Under the pieces are notes generated by a model, which was not told the origin of the DNA, ran no database searches, and saw only the letters and a list, made by a program, of their open reading frames with translations. This document shows, piece by piece, positions 2,127-11,475 of a stretch of 32,112 nt of DNA (within the stretch, counting starts at the first letter, position 1; the number at the start of each line of letters is the position of its first letter). The stretch comes from SAR324 cluster bacterium (GTDB taxonomy: Bacteria > SAR324 > JACQKK01). Location: contig JAPUIH010000028.1 in NCBI GenBank assembly GCA_027297205.1, positions 1-32,112 of the forward strand, read 5' to 3'. The translations under genes were made by a program, and so were the position numbers.

Positions 2127-2975
2127 TCATCGGCCCTTCTTCAGCCCCTCGTTGAGAGAGCCGGAGCGGAAGCCCTTCAGGTCCACGGTGACATAGCGGT
2201 AGCCCAACGCTTCCAGTTCACGCACGATCTGCTCGCGCTGTGGCAACAGCCGCTCAATATCCTCAACGGGCACTTCGATCCGCGCCACATCGCCGTGATG
2301 ACGAACCCGCAATTGCGCGAATCCCATCCGCTTCAGGACCTGTTCCGCCTGTTCAATTTGGGAGAGCATGGGCAATGTAATCGCCAATCCATAGGGGACG
2401 CGGCTGGACAGGCAGGCGGCCTGAGGCTTGCGCGCATTGCGCAGCCCCAAGTGCGCCGCCAGCCGTCGGATATCCGTTTTTTGGAAATAGTACTCCGCCA
2501 GGGGCGAGCGCACCTTGTATTCCGCTGCGGCCTGCAGGCCCGGACGGTGGTCGCCCAGATCGTCCAGGTTGGTGCCATTGATGATGACCGCAAAGCCCTC
2601 CTGGCCGGCCAAGGCCGCCAGGTCGGCATACAGCGTCGATTTGCAAAAATAGCAGCGGTTGACCGGGTTGGCCAGATAGGAGGGGTTGCTTGTCTCGGCG
2701 GTGCGGATTACGCGATGCGCCATGCCCCAGTCCGCCGCCAGGCTCTCGGTGAGCGCATAGTCATCCCGGGTCAGGCTCTCCGAACAGGAAGTCACGGCCA
2801 GCGCACTTTTACCCAGAACGCTGTGCGAAAGATACGCCACCAGCGAGCTGTCCACACCACCGGAAAAGGCGGTGATGACACTGCCCATGGCCTTAATTGC
2901 TTCCTGGAGCGCCAGGTACTTGCGTTCCAATTCGGAGTCCAGGGGGACGGTCTGTGTTTGCTGCAAGGCTTCCAC
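2127..2975 (-). CDS. larE: LarE-like ATP-dependent sacrificial sulfur transferase (PP-loop protein)
   Basis: LarE proteins adenylate and sulfurate the pyridinium-dicarboxylate nucleotide precursor of the nickel-pincer cofactor of lactate racemase and related enzymes. The PP-loop SGGVDSS is close to the N-terminus, and the family blocks NRCYFCK, NGTNLDDLGDHRPG and ACLSSRVPYG follow in order. Three cysteines are visible, CYFC plus the one in ACLSSR. That set suits the iron-sulfur type of LarE, which transfers external sulfur, rather than the type that sacrifices a single cysteine; this subtype is inferred. The open frame extends to an ATG at 3149, but its first ~58 residues are proline/arginine-rich and overlap the next gene. 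I prefer a GTG at 2975 (282 aa, normal family length); a TTG at 2966 is also possible. No larA, larB or larC is in the window. Confidence 0.85.
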   Translation of the reverse strand: MEALQQTQTVPLDSELERKYLALQEAIKAMGSVITAFSGGVDSSLVAYLSHSVLGKSALAVTSCSESLTRDDYALTESLAADWGMAHRVIRTAETSNPSYLANPVNRCYFCKSTLYADLAALAGQEGFAVIINGTNLDDLGDHRPGLQAAAEYKVRSPLAEYYFQKTDIRRLAAHLGLRNARKPQAACLSSRVPYGLAITLPMLSQIEQAEQVLKRMGFAQLRVRHHGDVARIEVPVEDIERLLPQREQIVRELEALGYRYVTVDLKGFRSGSLNEGLKKGR

Positions 2976-3108
2976 GGGGCTCGGCGATAGGAAGATTTGA
3001 ATGCGATCGGGCAGGCAGTTGCCTGACCACCGTTTATACGGGCGCCGTGGTTGCGGTGTCAATCGCGGACGTGCAATTCCGGAGGCTACAGGCCGCGGGC
3101 AGGGAGGC

Positions 3109-3795
3109 TCAGGAATCAGGCTCGGCCGCGGGCTCTGTCTCGGATTCAATCTCGTCGAGTTTTATTTGAGCATCCGCCGCTGACACTTCCCCACTTTCCA
3201 CACCTTGCTGAATATCCTTCAATTCCTCGCCCCGCACTTCCGCCGCCATTTCGCCATCGGCCACGGTCTCCTTTGTGGCCATAAAATCCGCCTCGTCTTT
3301 GAGATCGGAATTTTTCTTGAGAAACGAGGATTTAATTTCAAGATAATTCTTGAACAGTCTCGTGTCTCGCAGGGTCTGCACCAAATTTTTGAAGGTCACC
3401 ACCGCTTGTTGGTCGCTCGTGTCAACCGTATTCTTGGTCAATTTATCGATGGAACTCTTCAGCTCTTTGCCACCCTCGAATTCTTCCACCTTCAGGAAGG
3501 CATCAATCAGGCTTCCCGTATTGTGCAAGCGGCGATTGGTGCGTTCCACGAACTGGGGTGGCGTCAGCGCGTGCTGTGTCGATTTGGCGAAATGGCGGAT
3601 ATCCGCATTGTTAAATTTAAAAGCCCCCGACTGCTCCAGTTGCCGAAACTGCACCGCCTTGATTCCTGGAGGCATTTTTTCGATTACCTCGAGCTTCTCG
3701 TTGAGTTCCTTGAAATGCTCGATCAAATCGTCGTTATCCGCAGTCAGCAACTCCAGCGTGGCCCTTACCGCCGCGATTTCGTCAACATTTTCCAT
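3109..3795 (-). CDS. Hypothetical acidic, helical cytoplasmic protein
   Basis: I do not recognise this 228-residue protein. It has no signal peptide or membrane segment and is almost free of cysteine. It is rich in Glu, Asp, Lys and Gln, with heptad-like stretches (residues 15-45 and 165-215) that suggest amphipathic helices or coiled coil. The last ~35 residues are strongly acidic with ESETEPAAEPDS at the end. The ATG at 3795 is preceded by CAGGAG ten bases upstream, which supports the start. The 3' end lies just upstream of the larE-like gene on the same strand, so the two may be co-transcribed. GC content at third positions looks lower than in its neighbours, with many AAA, GAA and TTT codons, which may mark it as acquired or weakly constrained. 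Confidence 0.7.
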   Translation of the reverse strand: MENVDEIAAVRATLELLTADNDDLIEHFKELNEKLEVIEKMPPGIKAVQFRQLEQSGAFKFNNADIRHFAKSTQHALTPPQFVERTNRRLHNTGSLIDAFLKVEEFEGGKELKSSIDKLTKNTVDTSDQQAVVTFKNLVQTLRDTRLFKNYLEIKSSFLKKNSDLKDEADFMATKETVADGEMAAEVRGEELKDIQQGVESGEVSAADAQIKLDEIESETEPAAEPDS

Positions 3796-7554: not shown

Positions 7555-8508
7555 TCACAATTTCAGTTCGGCCAGCAGGTTTCTCCAGCCTGCAATTTCC
7601 CGGGATGGCTGGAACATGGGGGCCAGCCTAGCCATGTGCCGCTGCAGCGCTCTCAAGAAGGCAGCATCGTCTTCGGCGCGCGTCAGCAGTTCCCGCAGTT
7701 CTCCCGTGTCACCCACCCTGAAATAACCAGGATAGCTGTCACCCAGCAGGCCCACCGTGCCTGGAATTTTCGAGGCCAGGACGGGCAATCCCGCGGCGCC
7801 CGCCTCCGAGATCACATTCGCGCCACCTTCCATGCGGGAAGACAGCACCATCAACCTGCATGCGGCCAGCAGCCTCCGTACCCGCCAACGGGGCAATTCC
7901 CCCAGCCAGCTGTAACGGGAATTCGTCTGCGCTTCCCGTTTGGCCTTGCGTTCCATCTGCGGATTTAGGGCTTTCCCTGCGTGCAGCACGCGGATGCGTG
8001 AAGAGGCGGGCAATCCCCGCACGGCCATTGCGGCCCGGAACGGGTCTTTCTCCTCGCGCAAATGGCCGACCACACACACTGGAAAGCCCGTGTGCGGGGG
8101 CTTGACCCCTGCTGGAGGGGCCTGGGCAGATTGCACAATCACGCGCAGTTTACCCCGCACCGCGCGGGGCAACTCGCGGCTGGCCAAGGGCTGCAGGGCA
8201 ACCAACCGGGTGGCCATCCGCAACGACGCCCGGGCCTCCTCGCTGTTTTGCATGTCCCTGTACAGATCGGTGCCTGTCAAGGCCAGCACCAGCGGCGCCC
8301 TGGGATAGTGATCCCGGTAGGCGCGCAAGGCGGCATGACTGCGCCGGGCGTGGAGGGCGATCATCAGATCGCAGCGCTGGGCGTCATAGGTCTGGGCCAG
8401 GGTCACACGATGGCCCAGACCCTCCAGGATGCCGCGCCAGCGGAGGGCCGTAACCCGGTTGCCATGACGGGTGCGGGGCGGGGCGGGCGTAATCATGATG
8501 ATTTTCAT
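7555..8508 (-). CDS. senB: Selenosugar synthase SenB (selenoneine pathway glycosyltransferase)
   Basis: SenB couples selenophosphate with a UDP-hexosamine to give the selenosugar that SenA uses. The 317-residue protein is a GT-B glycosyltransferase with the features of the family once called TIGR04348. It opens with MKIIMITPAPP, GNRVTALRW and ALHARRSH. LALTGTDLYRD and VVGHLREEKDPFRAA follow, then RYSWLGELPRW, SSRMEGGANVISEAGAAGLPV and the ending GLLGDSYPGYFRVGDT. The C-terminal EGGANV...EA block should hold the nucleotide-sugar site. AGGG stands eight bases before the ATG. It lies 82 bp after senA in the same orientation, the usual order in selenoneine clusters. senC, the dedicated selenophosphate synthetase, is not downstream here; the next gene encodes PilZ. 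Selenophosphate may come from a distant selD or senC. Confidence 0.9.
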   Translation of the reverse strand: MKIIMITPAPPRTRHGNRVTALRWRGILEGLGHRVTLAQTYDAQRCDLMIALHARRSHAALRAYRDHYPRAPLVLALTGTDLYRDMQNSEEARASLRMATRLVALQPLASRELPRAVRGKLRVIVQSAQAPPAGVKPPHTGFPVCVVGHLREEKDPFRAAMAVRGLPASSRIRVLHAGKALNPQMERKAKREAQTNSRYSWLGELPRWRVRRLLAACRLMVLSSRMEGGANVISEAGAAGLPVLASKIPGTVGLLGDSYPGYFRVGDTGELRELLTRAEDDAAFLRALQRHMARLAPMFQPSREIAGWRNLLAELKL

Positions 8509-8533
8509 GGAGCGTGCCCTGGACGAGGAAACC

Positions 8534-8549
8534 GCCCCGCTGGCGGGGC
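8534..8549 (-). repeat. Hairpin between senA and senB
   Basis: GCCCCG-CTGG-CGGGGC forms a perfect six-base-pair stem with a tetraloop in the 82-bp spacer between the senA stop and the senB start. No U-run follows in the direction of transcription, so it is not a classical terminator. It could stabilise or attenuate the bicistronic mRNA. Confidence 0.35.
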
Positions 8550-8590
8550 TGAGAGGGAGCCGGAATGACTGGGCACGGGTCTGGCCGCCG

Positions 8591-9916
8591 CTACTGGGAG
8601 CAGGTGCGGAATCCGGCGAACACGTCGCTCCGATCCGGCATGAAGAAATTGCGCCAGGTGTTGCGTATCATGCGGGAGCGGGTGGCCCAGCTGCCGCCTC
8701 GCAGCACTTTGTGATACCCAAACCAGGGTGCGGAATACTCCCGGTAGGGATCGACCACAAAGCCGGGATAGGGATAGAAGGCGTCGGCGGTCCATTCCCA
8801 CACATTACCCAGCATTTGCCGGCAGCCATGGGCGCTATCTCCATCCGGCAAGGCCGCTACGTCCGCCGGTGCGGTGGAATGACAATCCAGGTTGGCGTGT
8901 TGGGGTGTGGGCGCCGCATCACCCCAGGGATAGCGGCGCTTTTCGCCAAGCAGGGAGCCGTTGGCGGCGGGCACCGTGGCCGCGGCCAGCTCCCACTCGG
9001 CCTCTGTGGGCAGTCTGCGTCCGGCCCAATTGCAATAGGCCTCCGCTTCAAACCAGTTGACGTGCAGCGCCGGCTGATGCTCCCGTATCGGCTCCCAGCG
9101 GTCGAAGCGGCGGCAGCGCCAGCCGCCCCCCCTGCCGGGACGCCAGTAAACTGGGTGCTTCGCGCGGGAATTGCCCAGCCAGAGCCGGCCCCGGATGCTC
9201 CAGAATTGTTCGCTGCGGTAACCCCCCGCTTCCACGAACTGAGCAAATTCGCCATTGGTGACAGCTGCGCGGGCGATGTGGAACGGCGCTACGTCCACGG
9301 GATGCGCCCATTTCTCGTTGTCGAAAACGTAGGGCATGTCCTGGCTGCCGCCCAGCATATAGCCTTGCGCGCCGGGCACCTCCACATCGCCCGGCAAGGG
9401 CCCCGCCGGTTCCGCTTCCGGCGGCGGTTCCACAGCCCTGGCCTGCAAGGTTGGAGCGGAATAGCGCTGGGTCTGGCGGTCATGGATCATGGCCTCGTCG
9501 TGCATGTCCTCATGAAACACAGACAGCCTGTTGTAGTAAGTGGCCTCCTCACCAAGTGCCGTGTCGCGCACGGTCTCCAACACGTTCTCCAATACCTCCG
9601 CCGCATAAGCGAGCGTACTTTCCCGCCCGGGCATGGCAAGGTCCCAGCGGATTTCGTGGGCCACTTCAAAGGAATCGTAGAGTGCGTCCACCTCCGGCCG
9701 CAAGGTGGGACGTCCGTTCAGGTGGCGCAGCACCCATCTTTCCTGGAACCAGGCGATATGGCCTACGTGCCAGATCATGGGATTTACCGTGGCCACTATT
9801 TTCCCAAGCAACTGTTCATCGGTCAGGTCTTCCACCAAATGGAAAGTGAAGTCCCGAGCGTCGCGCACCCAACGCGTCAGTTCCTCTTCCGCCGCGGCTT
9901 TGCAGGCCAAATCCAT
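8591..9916 (-). CDS. senA: Selenoneine synthase SenA (EgtB-like non-heme iron enzyme)
   Basis: SenA oxidatively joins hercynine (N-trimethylhistidine) to the selenosugar made by SenB, forming the C-Se bond of selenoneine. The 441 residues have the EgtB layout. A DinB-like N-terminal domain carries the predicted iron ligands: H50 in WHVGHIAWF and H135/H139 in FHEDMHDEAM. A C-terminal sulfatase-modifying-factor (FGE-like) domain carries LPTEAEWELAAA, GNVWEWTAD, PYPGFVVDPY and VLRGGSWATR. The EYSAPWFGYHKVLRGGSW stretch and the neighbouring senB favour SenA over the ergothioneine enzyme EgtB; that choice rests on context as well as sequence. The ATG at 9916 matches the family N-terminus; an upstream start at 9994 would add a proline-rich tail. 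Hercynine requires an EgtD methyltransferase, which is not in the window. Confidence 0.9.
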   Translation of the reverse strand: MDLACKAAAEEELTRWVRDARDFTFHLVEDLTDEQLLGKIVATVNPMIWHVGHIAWFQERWVLRHLNGRPTLRPEVDALYDSFEVAHEIRWDLAMPGRESTLAYAAEVLENVLETVRDTALGEEATYYNRLSVFHEDMHDEAMIHDRQTQRYSAPTLQARAVEPPPEAEPAGPLPGDVEVPGAQGYMLGGSQDMPYVFDNEKWAHPVDVAPFHIARAAVTNGEFAQFVEAGGYRSEQFWSIRGRLWLGNSRAKHPVYWRPGRGGGWRCRRFDRWEPIREHQPALHVNWFEAEAYCNWAGRRLPTEAEWELAAATVPAANGSLLGEKRRYPWGDAAPTPQHANLDCHSTAPADVAALPDGDSAHGCRQMLGNVWEWTADAFYPYPGFVVDPYREYSAPWFGYHKVLRGGSWATRSRMIRNTWRNFFMPDRSDVFAGFRTCSQ

Positions 9917-10009
9917 CGGTATTCCATCCTGCGGGATCCAGGGGCGCCCCGTGGCGGGTTTCGCCAAAAGTTTCGTGGCCGGGCGGAGCACCACCCGTAC
10001 CGCCGCTTA

Positions 10010-11386
10010 TTACAAAGGTTTCAGATCACCCAGCAAAGTTGGCAGGAGTTCCGAAACCGTGGGATGGATGTGTACCGCGCGGGTCACCGTCGTATAGGGC
10101 GCCTTGGCATACATCAGATCCAGCAGGGAGTGGGCTATCTCGTCGCCCCCGATACCCAGCAAGGCCGCACCCAGTATCTCCTTACTCTCCGCATCCACCA
10201 CCACTTTCATAAAGCCCTGGGTTTCGCCGCGTTCCCGGGCACGGGCCACTCGCTCCATCTGCATTGTCCCCACCAGGGCCTTGCGTCCCGATTCCCGCAC
10301 CTGCTGCTCCGTCATGCCGGCCCGCCCCAGCGGGGGGTCGATAAAAAGACCGTAGCAGATGATGCGGTCCGCCACGCTGCGCGGGTCGTTGTCGAACAGA
10401 TTGGCCGCCACGATCTCATAATCGTTGTAGGAAGTATGGGTAAAAGCGCCCAGGCCATTGCAATCTCCGATGGCCCAGATGCCTTCTACGTTGGTGCGCA
10501 ACTGGTTGTCCACCGTGATCATTCCCTGGGGATTGGTGGCCACCCCGGCCTTGTCGAGGCCGAGGTCATCGGTATTGGGGCGGCGTCCTACGGCAACCAG
10601 CAGATGGGAGCCGGCAAGGTCTTCCTCGCCGCCCGCGCCATTCAGTTTGACCGAAATGCCGCCGCTCTGCTGCCCGGCTTCCGCCAGGGTGGTGTCAAGC
10701 CGGATGTCGATGCCCTCATTTTCCAGTATTTTCTTGATGGCATCGGAGATATCTTCATCTTCCCGTGGGATCAGGCGGGGTCCTTGTTCCACCACCGTTA
10801 CCTTGCTCCCGAAGCGCCGGTATATCTGGGAGAATTCCAGGCCGATATAGCTGCCGCCGAGCACAATCAGGTGCTCGGGCACCGCTTCCAATTCCAGCAT
10901 GCTGGAGTTGGTGAGGTACTTGATACTGTCCAGACCTGGCACCGGCGGCACCATGGCCCGCGCACCCACGTTAATGAAAATCTTATCAGCTTCGAGCACC
11001 TCTCCGTTCACACTTACCGTATTTGGGCTTTCCAGGCGGCCATGGCCCTGGAAAATCGTACCGTTGTCCAGATTCTTCATCCAGTTGGTGACGCCGGTGT
11101 TGGAACGCTCCACAATTTCGTCTTTGCGGGCCTTGACCCGCTTCATGTCCACCCGGATCGGCGAGTCGATCATGACGCCGAATTCCGCGCCTCGGTTGGC
11201 CATGTATGCTGCCCTGGCGCTAGCCACCAAGGTTTTTGTGGGAATTCAACCTGTATTGACACAGGTGCCGCCGAATTTATCTCTCTCGATGACAGCCACC
11301 TGCATGCCCTCCTGGCTCAGGCGGGATGCCAGAGAGGGGCCCGACTGGCCGGTGCCGATTACGATTGCGTCGAACTTGGTTGTCAT
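10010..11386 (-). CDS. Selenocysteine-containing (in-frame UGA) FAD pyridine-nucleotide-disulfide oxidoreductase, mercuric-reductase/DLDH-like
   Basis: This is a class I flavin disulfide reductase of 458 codons. Residues 1-46 hold the FAD motif VIGTGQSGPSLA and the start of the redox site, GGTCVNTG; codon 47 is TGA (11246-11248), and IPTKTLVASARAA follows. Every close relative I know has Cys at that place (CVNTGCIPTK), so UGA replaces exactly the second active-site cysteine. Downstream all parts are intact: NAD(P)H site LGGSYIGLEF, AIGDCNGLG, and the dimer-interface catalytic HIHPTVSE. AAGGAG precedes the ATG by four bases, and a SECIS-like hairpin follows the UGA. There is no C-terminal cysteine pair and no heavy-metal domain, so it is not a true MerA. 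Its substrate is unknown. It lies 93 bp upstream of senA, same strand. Automated callers would start it after the UGA (near 11230) and lose the FAD motif. A nonsense mutation or sequencing error is the alternative. Confidence 0.85.
11212..11232 (-). promoter_or_regulatory. Candidate bacterial SECIS element
   Basis: On the minus strand CCTTGGTG-GCTAG-CGCCAGGG folds into an eight-pair stem (two G-U pairs) with a five-base loop that begins with G. The loop begins 22 bases after the last base of the UGA at 11246-11248, inside the 16-37 range usual for bacterial SECIS elements, whose loop needs a G in its first two positions. The stem lies in coding sequence for a conserved block (TLVASARA), so part of the pairing could be coincidental. 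Confidence 0.65.
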
Positions 11387-11390
11387 ATTG

Positions 11391-11397
11391 CTCCTTT
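11391..11397 (-). promoter_or_regulatory. Strong ribosome binding site of the UGA-containing oxidoreductase
   Basis: AAAGGAG on the minus strand ends four bases before the ATG at 11386. It fixes the start upstream of the UGA codon, which argues that the N-terminal 46 codons are translated and that the frame is meant to be read through. Confidence 0.75.
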
Positions 11398-11409
11398 CTT
11401 CGCCCCTCA

Positions 11410-11435
11410 GGCCGGCTGCCTAGGCAGGACCGGCC
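11410..11435. repeat. Nested inverted repeat in the selenoprotein gene leader
   Basis: GGCCGG and CCGGCC flank the perfect palindrome TGCCTAGGCA (11417-11426), so the whole can form a long GC-rich hairpin. It starts 24 bases upstream of the selenoprotein ATG and may lie in its 5' leader. It could be an operator or leader structure. No U-run follows. Confidence 0.4.
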
Positions 11436-11475
11436 GGCGTGGCGGGGGCGCTTGTTGATCGATTCCCTTCCCCTG

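Follow-up and report, generated by a model that had tools for sequence, protein, structure and literature searches.

The question raised by this locus is whether a flavin-dependent disulfide reductase gene, in which a TGA codon stands where a redox-active cysteine is expected, encodes a selenoprotein, and what such an enzyme would do beside genes for selenoneine biosynthesis. The locus lies on a contig of a SAR324 draft genome, and the whole 32,112-nucleotide stretch that was analyzed is referred to here as the window.

A disulfide reductase gene with a single in-frame TGA

An initial sequence-only reading described a frame starting at ATG 11386 and broken once by TGA, with a strong AAAGGAG ahead of the start, and both descriptions are borne out. 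The frame begins at ATG 11386-11384 on the minus strand, downstream of the AAAGGAG, and translation through the TGA continues without further interruption over 458 codons to a TAATAA, the first TAA being at 10012-10010. The features of this gene are as follows.

10010..11386, minus strand: FAD-dependent disulfide reductase of the PRK06370 group, 458 amino acids with putative Sec47 (NF004992, Pyr_redox_2, Pyr_redox_dim)
11246..11248, minus strand: in-frame TGA, codon 47, taken as selenocysteine (TGA also in L010 and L210, TGC or TGT in other homologs)
11261..11263, minus strand: Cys42 codon, where the CxxxxU redox pair begins (from the alignment)
11391..11397, minus strand: ribosome-binding site AAAGGAG (from the sequence)

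The codon occurs in the context GGTCVNTG-U-IPTKTLVASARAA, where it occupies the place of the second cysteine of CVNTGC, the CxxxxC redox pair, while position 42 is still Cys. Its assignment to the second redox cysteine, made at first from the motif alone, agrees with the alignment, in which column 47 is invariant when UGA is read as C. The plus strand has a 995-codon open frame (window 8471-11458) antisense to both the reductase and senA, for which the GC-rich coding sequence of the minus strand is the likely cause.

Enzyme class and active site

The best NCBIfam model for the reductase is NF004992 (PRK06370.1-4 equivalog) at 767 bits against a cut-off of 629, and its Pfam domains are PF07992, PF00070, and PF02852, which represent FAD/NAD binding and dimerization. 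The AlphaFold model has a mean pLDDT of 91 and superimposes with a TM of about 0.9 on Lpd, RclA, and MerA. C42 and position 47 align to the CxxxxC of Escherichia coli RclA, and C42, C47, H441, and E446 do not vary across the 33 proteins of the alignment if UGA is counted as C; the active site of the reductase therefore appears to be otherwise complete. With domains, modeled fold, CxxxxC spacing, and His-Glu pair all met, the predicted product is a class I flavoprotein disulfide reductase of the GR/Lpd/MerA type. Position 47 corresponds to the flavin-proximal, charge-transfer cysteine of glutathione reductase.

Members of the PRK06370 group (NF004992/NF004990) have the CxxxxC at the same position and the HPTxxE motif, and the window protein matches over its full length above the NF004992 cut-off; known members carry Cys, whereas the window gene and 2 others carry UGA. 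The RclA, MerA, and Har disulfide reductases are the closest solved relatives by sequence and fold. Unlike the window enzyme, they have Cys at both positions, and, judging by the names of their database entries, their substrates are metals, HOSCN, or products of reactive chlorine.

Recurrence of TGA at the catalytic codon

A search for the active-site pattern with TGA covered 52 genomes of the phylum, 82 genomes of another phylum, 383 relatives, and IMG/VR, and returned only 3 UGA forms in all. Two come from the 52 genomes of the phylum, namely the window gene and L010, which belongs to a genome of another SAR324 genus (G008), has TGA at the codon 47 position, and is 71% identical to the window gene. 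The third, L210, was found among the 383 relatives in a genome of another phylum (G180); it has 456 codons, reads GGSCVNSG-U-TPTK, is 45% identical, remains open past the TGA to its own TAA, and scores 559 bits against NF004992, under the 629 cut-off. TGA at the catalytic codon is thus present in 3 assemblies from 3 genera and 2 phyla, and tRNA-Sec was found in all 3 genomes. The tree gives no support to a single origin of the UGA form (0% of bootstraps), and long branches leave the placement unsure.

At the codon 47 position the other homologs read, some 75 loci spread over many phyla, carry TGC or TGT, which gives exactly the mixture of Cys and UGA in this column that the sequence-only reading had proposed to look for. 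Neither TAA nor TAG was seen at this codon in any homologous locus read (about 75 plus the UGA forms). The sequence-only reading argued that a random nonsense mutation would have no reason to fall on this codon, and recurrence in 3 genomes without TAA or TAG exceeds chance. Other stops or frameshifts among the homologs would have spoken against a selenoprotein; none occur at the codon, and the downstream frame is conserved. Between the window gene and L010, dN/dS after the TGA is about 0.24, with similar values upstream of the TGA and against cysteine genes, and purifying selection acts on the codons downstream of the TGA.

These observations bear directly on whether a cysteine gene has merely acquired its TGA by nonsense mutation or base-call error. 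Stray stops are indeed found in draft metagenome contigs, as in the senB of genome G006 and at codon 14 of L106, and L010 has no clear SECIS. Against this stand the 3 independent assemblies, the tRNA-Sec of each genome, and the intact remainder of the frame. A pseudogene or an error is very unlikely because TGA recurs at the same codon, is never replaced by TAA or TAG, and is followed by sequence under purifying selection.

The details of the 2 stray stops are these. L106 (OX638326.1) is a cysteine homolog with TAA at codon 14, in the FAD-binding motif, and is evidently a pseudogene or an error. L079 (G006 C220:6177-7109) is a SAR324 senB with an in-frame TGA at a noncatalytic position (..LPEDS-stop-IRVLHVGG), the probable result of a nonsense mutation or base error, and serves as a useful background case.

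Selenocysteine machinery of the host

The 3.24-Mb draft genome to which the window belongs is 91% complete and encodes a tRNA-Sec (selC, 61.4 bits; ARAGORN agrees, anticodon TCA), SelB (360 bits), SelA (500 bits), and SelD (380 bits), the selD gene itself having an in-frame TGA. Absence of this machinery would have refuted the initial proposal, and with all 4 genes found that refutation fails. G008 likewise has selA, selB, selC, and selD. In G180 the tRNA-Sec scores 75.5 bits and is the only component recovered, selA, selB, and selD not having been found in the 1.2 Mb searched of about 4.5 Mb.

A UGA reassigned to, or read through as, an ordinary amino acid would also be compatible with a frame that is open on either side of the codon. 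However, other genes of the window terminate at TGA as an ordinary stop, the genome holds a full Sec system, and the codon stands in place of a redox-site Cys, so that we regard this explanation as the most improbable of those considered. We are highly confident that the reductase gene encodes a selenoprotein with Sec at UGA 11246-11248, an inference made from sequence comparison without reads, protein, or 75Se data.

All 8 SAR324 selD genes above the cut-off (L173-L180) carry TGA. Their conserved hairpins have an apical loop of GGUC type (GGAC in one) 17 or 21 nt downstream of the TGA, and they fall into 2 stem types. They are a good starting point for a SECIS model of this lineage.

A SECIS-like hairpin of little evidential weight

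A hairpin downstream of the UGA had been put forward in support of the selenoprotein.

11212..11232, minus strand: SECIS-like hairpin of 8 bp with loop GCUAG, a possible SECIS without independent support (predicted fold and geometry)

The geometry reported for this element stands: it has 8 pairs and a 5-base loop, is the predicted minimum-energy fold, begins 13 nt past the TGA, and reaches its loop after 21 nt, a loop position matching that of the SAR324 selD hairpins (17 or 21 nt). The weight originally placed on it does not. Its energy z-score against shuffles is 0.09, a synonymous-codon shuffle equals it in 3% of cases, and an Rfam search gave no SECIS match in the window. At the same place the cysteine homologs L112 and L119 fold into hairpins that are as strong or stronger, and in L112 a hairpin of the same form, with 8 pairs and a 5-base loop, lies behind TGC. 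The hairpin consequently carries little weight, since cysteine homologs form it as well. Among the other UGA forms, L210 forms a hairpin of 8 pairs whose loop, UGCG, is 26 nt after the UGA, and fold and shuffle tests revealed no clear SECIS hairpin near the UGA of L010. The SECIS was rejected as independent proof on the grounds that cysteine homologs fold alike, that L010 lacks a clear hairpin, and that the z-score is 0.09.

Ergothioneine and selenoneine genes near the reductase

Directly downstream of the reductase are senA and then senB, both above curated cut-offs.

8591..9994, minus strand: senA, selenoneine synthase (ATG 9916 also possible; NF041186, 484.5 bits, cut-off 420)
7555..8508, minus strand: senB, selenosugar synthase (TIGR04348, 401.9 bits, cut-off 300)

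These profile matches identify SenA and SenB in what had been called a selenium locus; that description had not extended to ergothioneine or selenoneine, and the link of the reductase to these compounds comes from the present analysis. The window also encodes a LarE-type ATP-dependent sacrificial sulfur transferase (2127-3149, minus strand; TIGR00268, 309 bits). In another SAR324 genome (G004 C104:22773-24779), selD directly adjoins senB, which ties selenophosphate supply to selenoneine synthesis. EgtD, which supplies hercynine, is over its cut-off in 7 of 9 other SAR324-family genomes searched. The window's own genome (G000), at 91% completeness, has no egtD match, leaving the hercynine source unaccounted for.

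Cysteine-containing relatives of the reductase also occur near such genes. In L110, a cysteine form from Planctomycetota, an ABC ATPase and an OpuAC-permease fusion adjoin the reductase, and egtD, senB, and the end of senA lie within 6 kb. In L130 (6001-11893, Terriglobia), the reductase is followed in order by an EgtB-like gene, egtD, ATPase, permease, and substrate-binding protein, and this row of reductase, EgtB-like gene, egtD, and OpuAC-type ABC transporter is apparently a single operon. The EgtB-like protein scores under the EgtB, SenA, and OvoA cut-offs alike and for that reason may be a distinct sulfoxide synthase. In L119 and L148, genes matching egtB and egtD above cut-off lie within 4 kb of the reductase. 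A reductase only 44% identical, in G096, is adjoined by an OpuAC-permease gene whose product shares 68% identity with its L110 counterpart across 104 residues at the contig end. There are no specificity data for the L110 and L130 transporters, which are of the OpuAC type, as is EgtU. EgtU, the published ergothioneine transporter, is an ABC transporter (PMC9732360).

Across 80 loci, 4 egtD neighbors were seen versus 0.24 expected, with P about 1e-4 under the assumption of one egtD per genome everywhere.

Proposed function and mechanism

The adjacency of senA-senB, the linkage of cysteine relatives to egtD and egtB, and the precedent of a selenium-dependent thioredoxin reductase together favor a reductase of oxidized ergothioneine or selenoneine. 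In the mammalian enzyme, reduction of ergothioneine disulfide is selenium dependent (PMC8868364). Our best guess for the window enzyme, with its activity inferred, is an NAD(P)H-dependent reductase of either oxidized compound. In the proposed mechanism, SelA, SelB, tRNA-Sec, and SelD of the same genome would insert selenocysteine at the UGA. NAD(P)H would reduce FAD, and the reduced FAD would in turn reduce a Cys42-Sec47 selenenylsulfide. Cys42, with the conserved His441/Glu446 pair, could then attack a small oxidized substrate, most likely, to judge by the gene neighborhood, a disulfide or diselenide of ergothioneine or selenoneine. In this way the enzyme would recycle the antioxidant product of the neighboring senA-senB.

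A selenoprotein that acts instead on reactive chlorine, hypothiocyanite, metal ions in the manner of RclA and MerA, or another low-molecular-weight disulfide, with the sen genes adjacent by chance, is a substantial possibility even if we do not think it probable. The closest solved sequence is E. coli RclA, and RclA, MerA, and Lpd are among the best folds. Only about 5 of some 80 homologs are near egt or sen genes, most lying far off, and L010, the second gene from SAR324, has no senA next to it, the senA-senB pair of G008 being on another contig. Chance proximity is nevertheless hard to reconcile with egtD linkage in 4 separate loci of different lineages, and senA-senB is beside the reductase both in the window and in L110. 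Recycling of ergothioneine or selenoneine is accordingly the role we prefer, although in the absence of activity data it has, given a selenoprotein, only somewhat better than an even chance of being right. The complete statement, a reductase with Sec47 that recycles oxidized ergothioneine or selenoneine, with substrate and electron path inferred, is favored by no more than a slim balance. A broader proposal is more tentative still, and we would not call it likely: that bacteria have a dedicated recycling system in which a flavoenzyme with Sec at the position that contacts the flavin keeps selenoneine (or ergothioneine) reduced from the same operon as the biosynthetic enzymes, with the cysteine relatives representing an unknown bacterial ergothioneine disulfide reductase.

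Relation to known selenoproteins

Mammalian Sec thioredoxin reductase is likewise a flavin disulfide reductase that uses selenium, but its Sec is on the C-terminal tail, whereas that of the window enzyme would replace the flavin-proximal Cys of CxxxxC. Mammalian thioredoxin reductase has an ordinary CxxxxC.

A class I reductase with CxxxxU is absent from a 2026 table of 119 prokaryotic selenoprotein families and subfamilies (PMC13188914). It is also absent from the other selenoprotein lists consulted, and no earlier report of this selenoprotein was found; these searches were confined to open-access literature, in which absence is not proof. The table does contain FAD enzymes, whose motifs are UGxP and HxxU, and a metal-binding protein with UxxU. 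The former include a CoA-disulfide reductase/NADH oxidase (TIGR03385) and a type III sulfide:quinone reductase (NF049943), which are also FAD/NAD(P)-binding bacterial selenoproteins (PMC13188914), but their listed Sec motifs, UGxP and HxxU, are neither of them the CxxxxU of a class I two-cysteine reductase. The metal-binding selenoprotein NF041115, listed as a putative mercuric reductase, is tied by that name to the MerA family (PMC13188914) but has a UxxU motif with 2 Sec and not a CxxxxC site.

No dedicated reductase of ergothioneine disulfide or of selenoneine is named in the literature searched. The neighborhood of the window gene points to a testable candidate for this missing bacterial reductase of ergothioneine and selenoneine. 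Selenium placed beside the flavin, if true, would make for an unusual experiment of nature on an enzyme mechanism known from textbooks.
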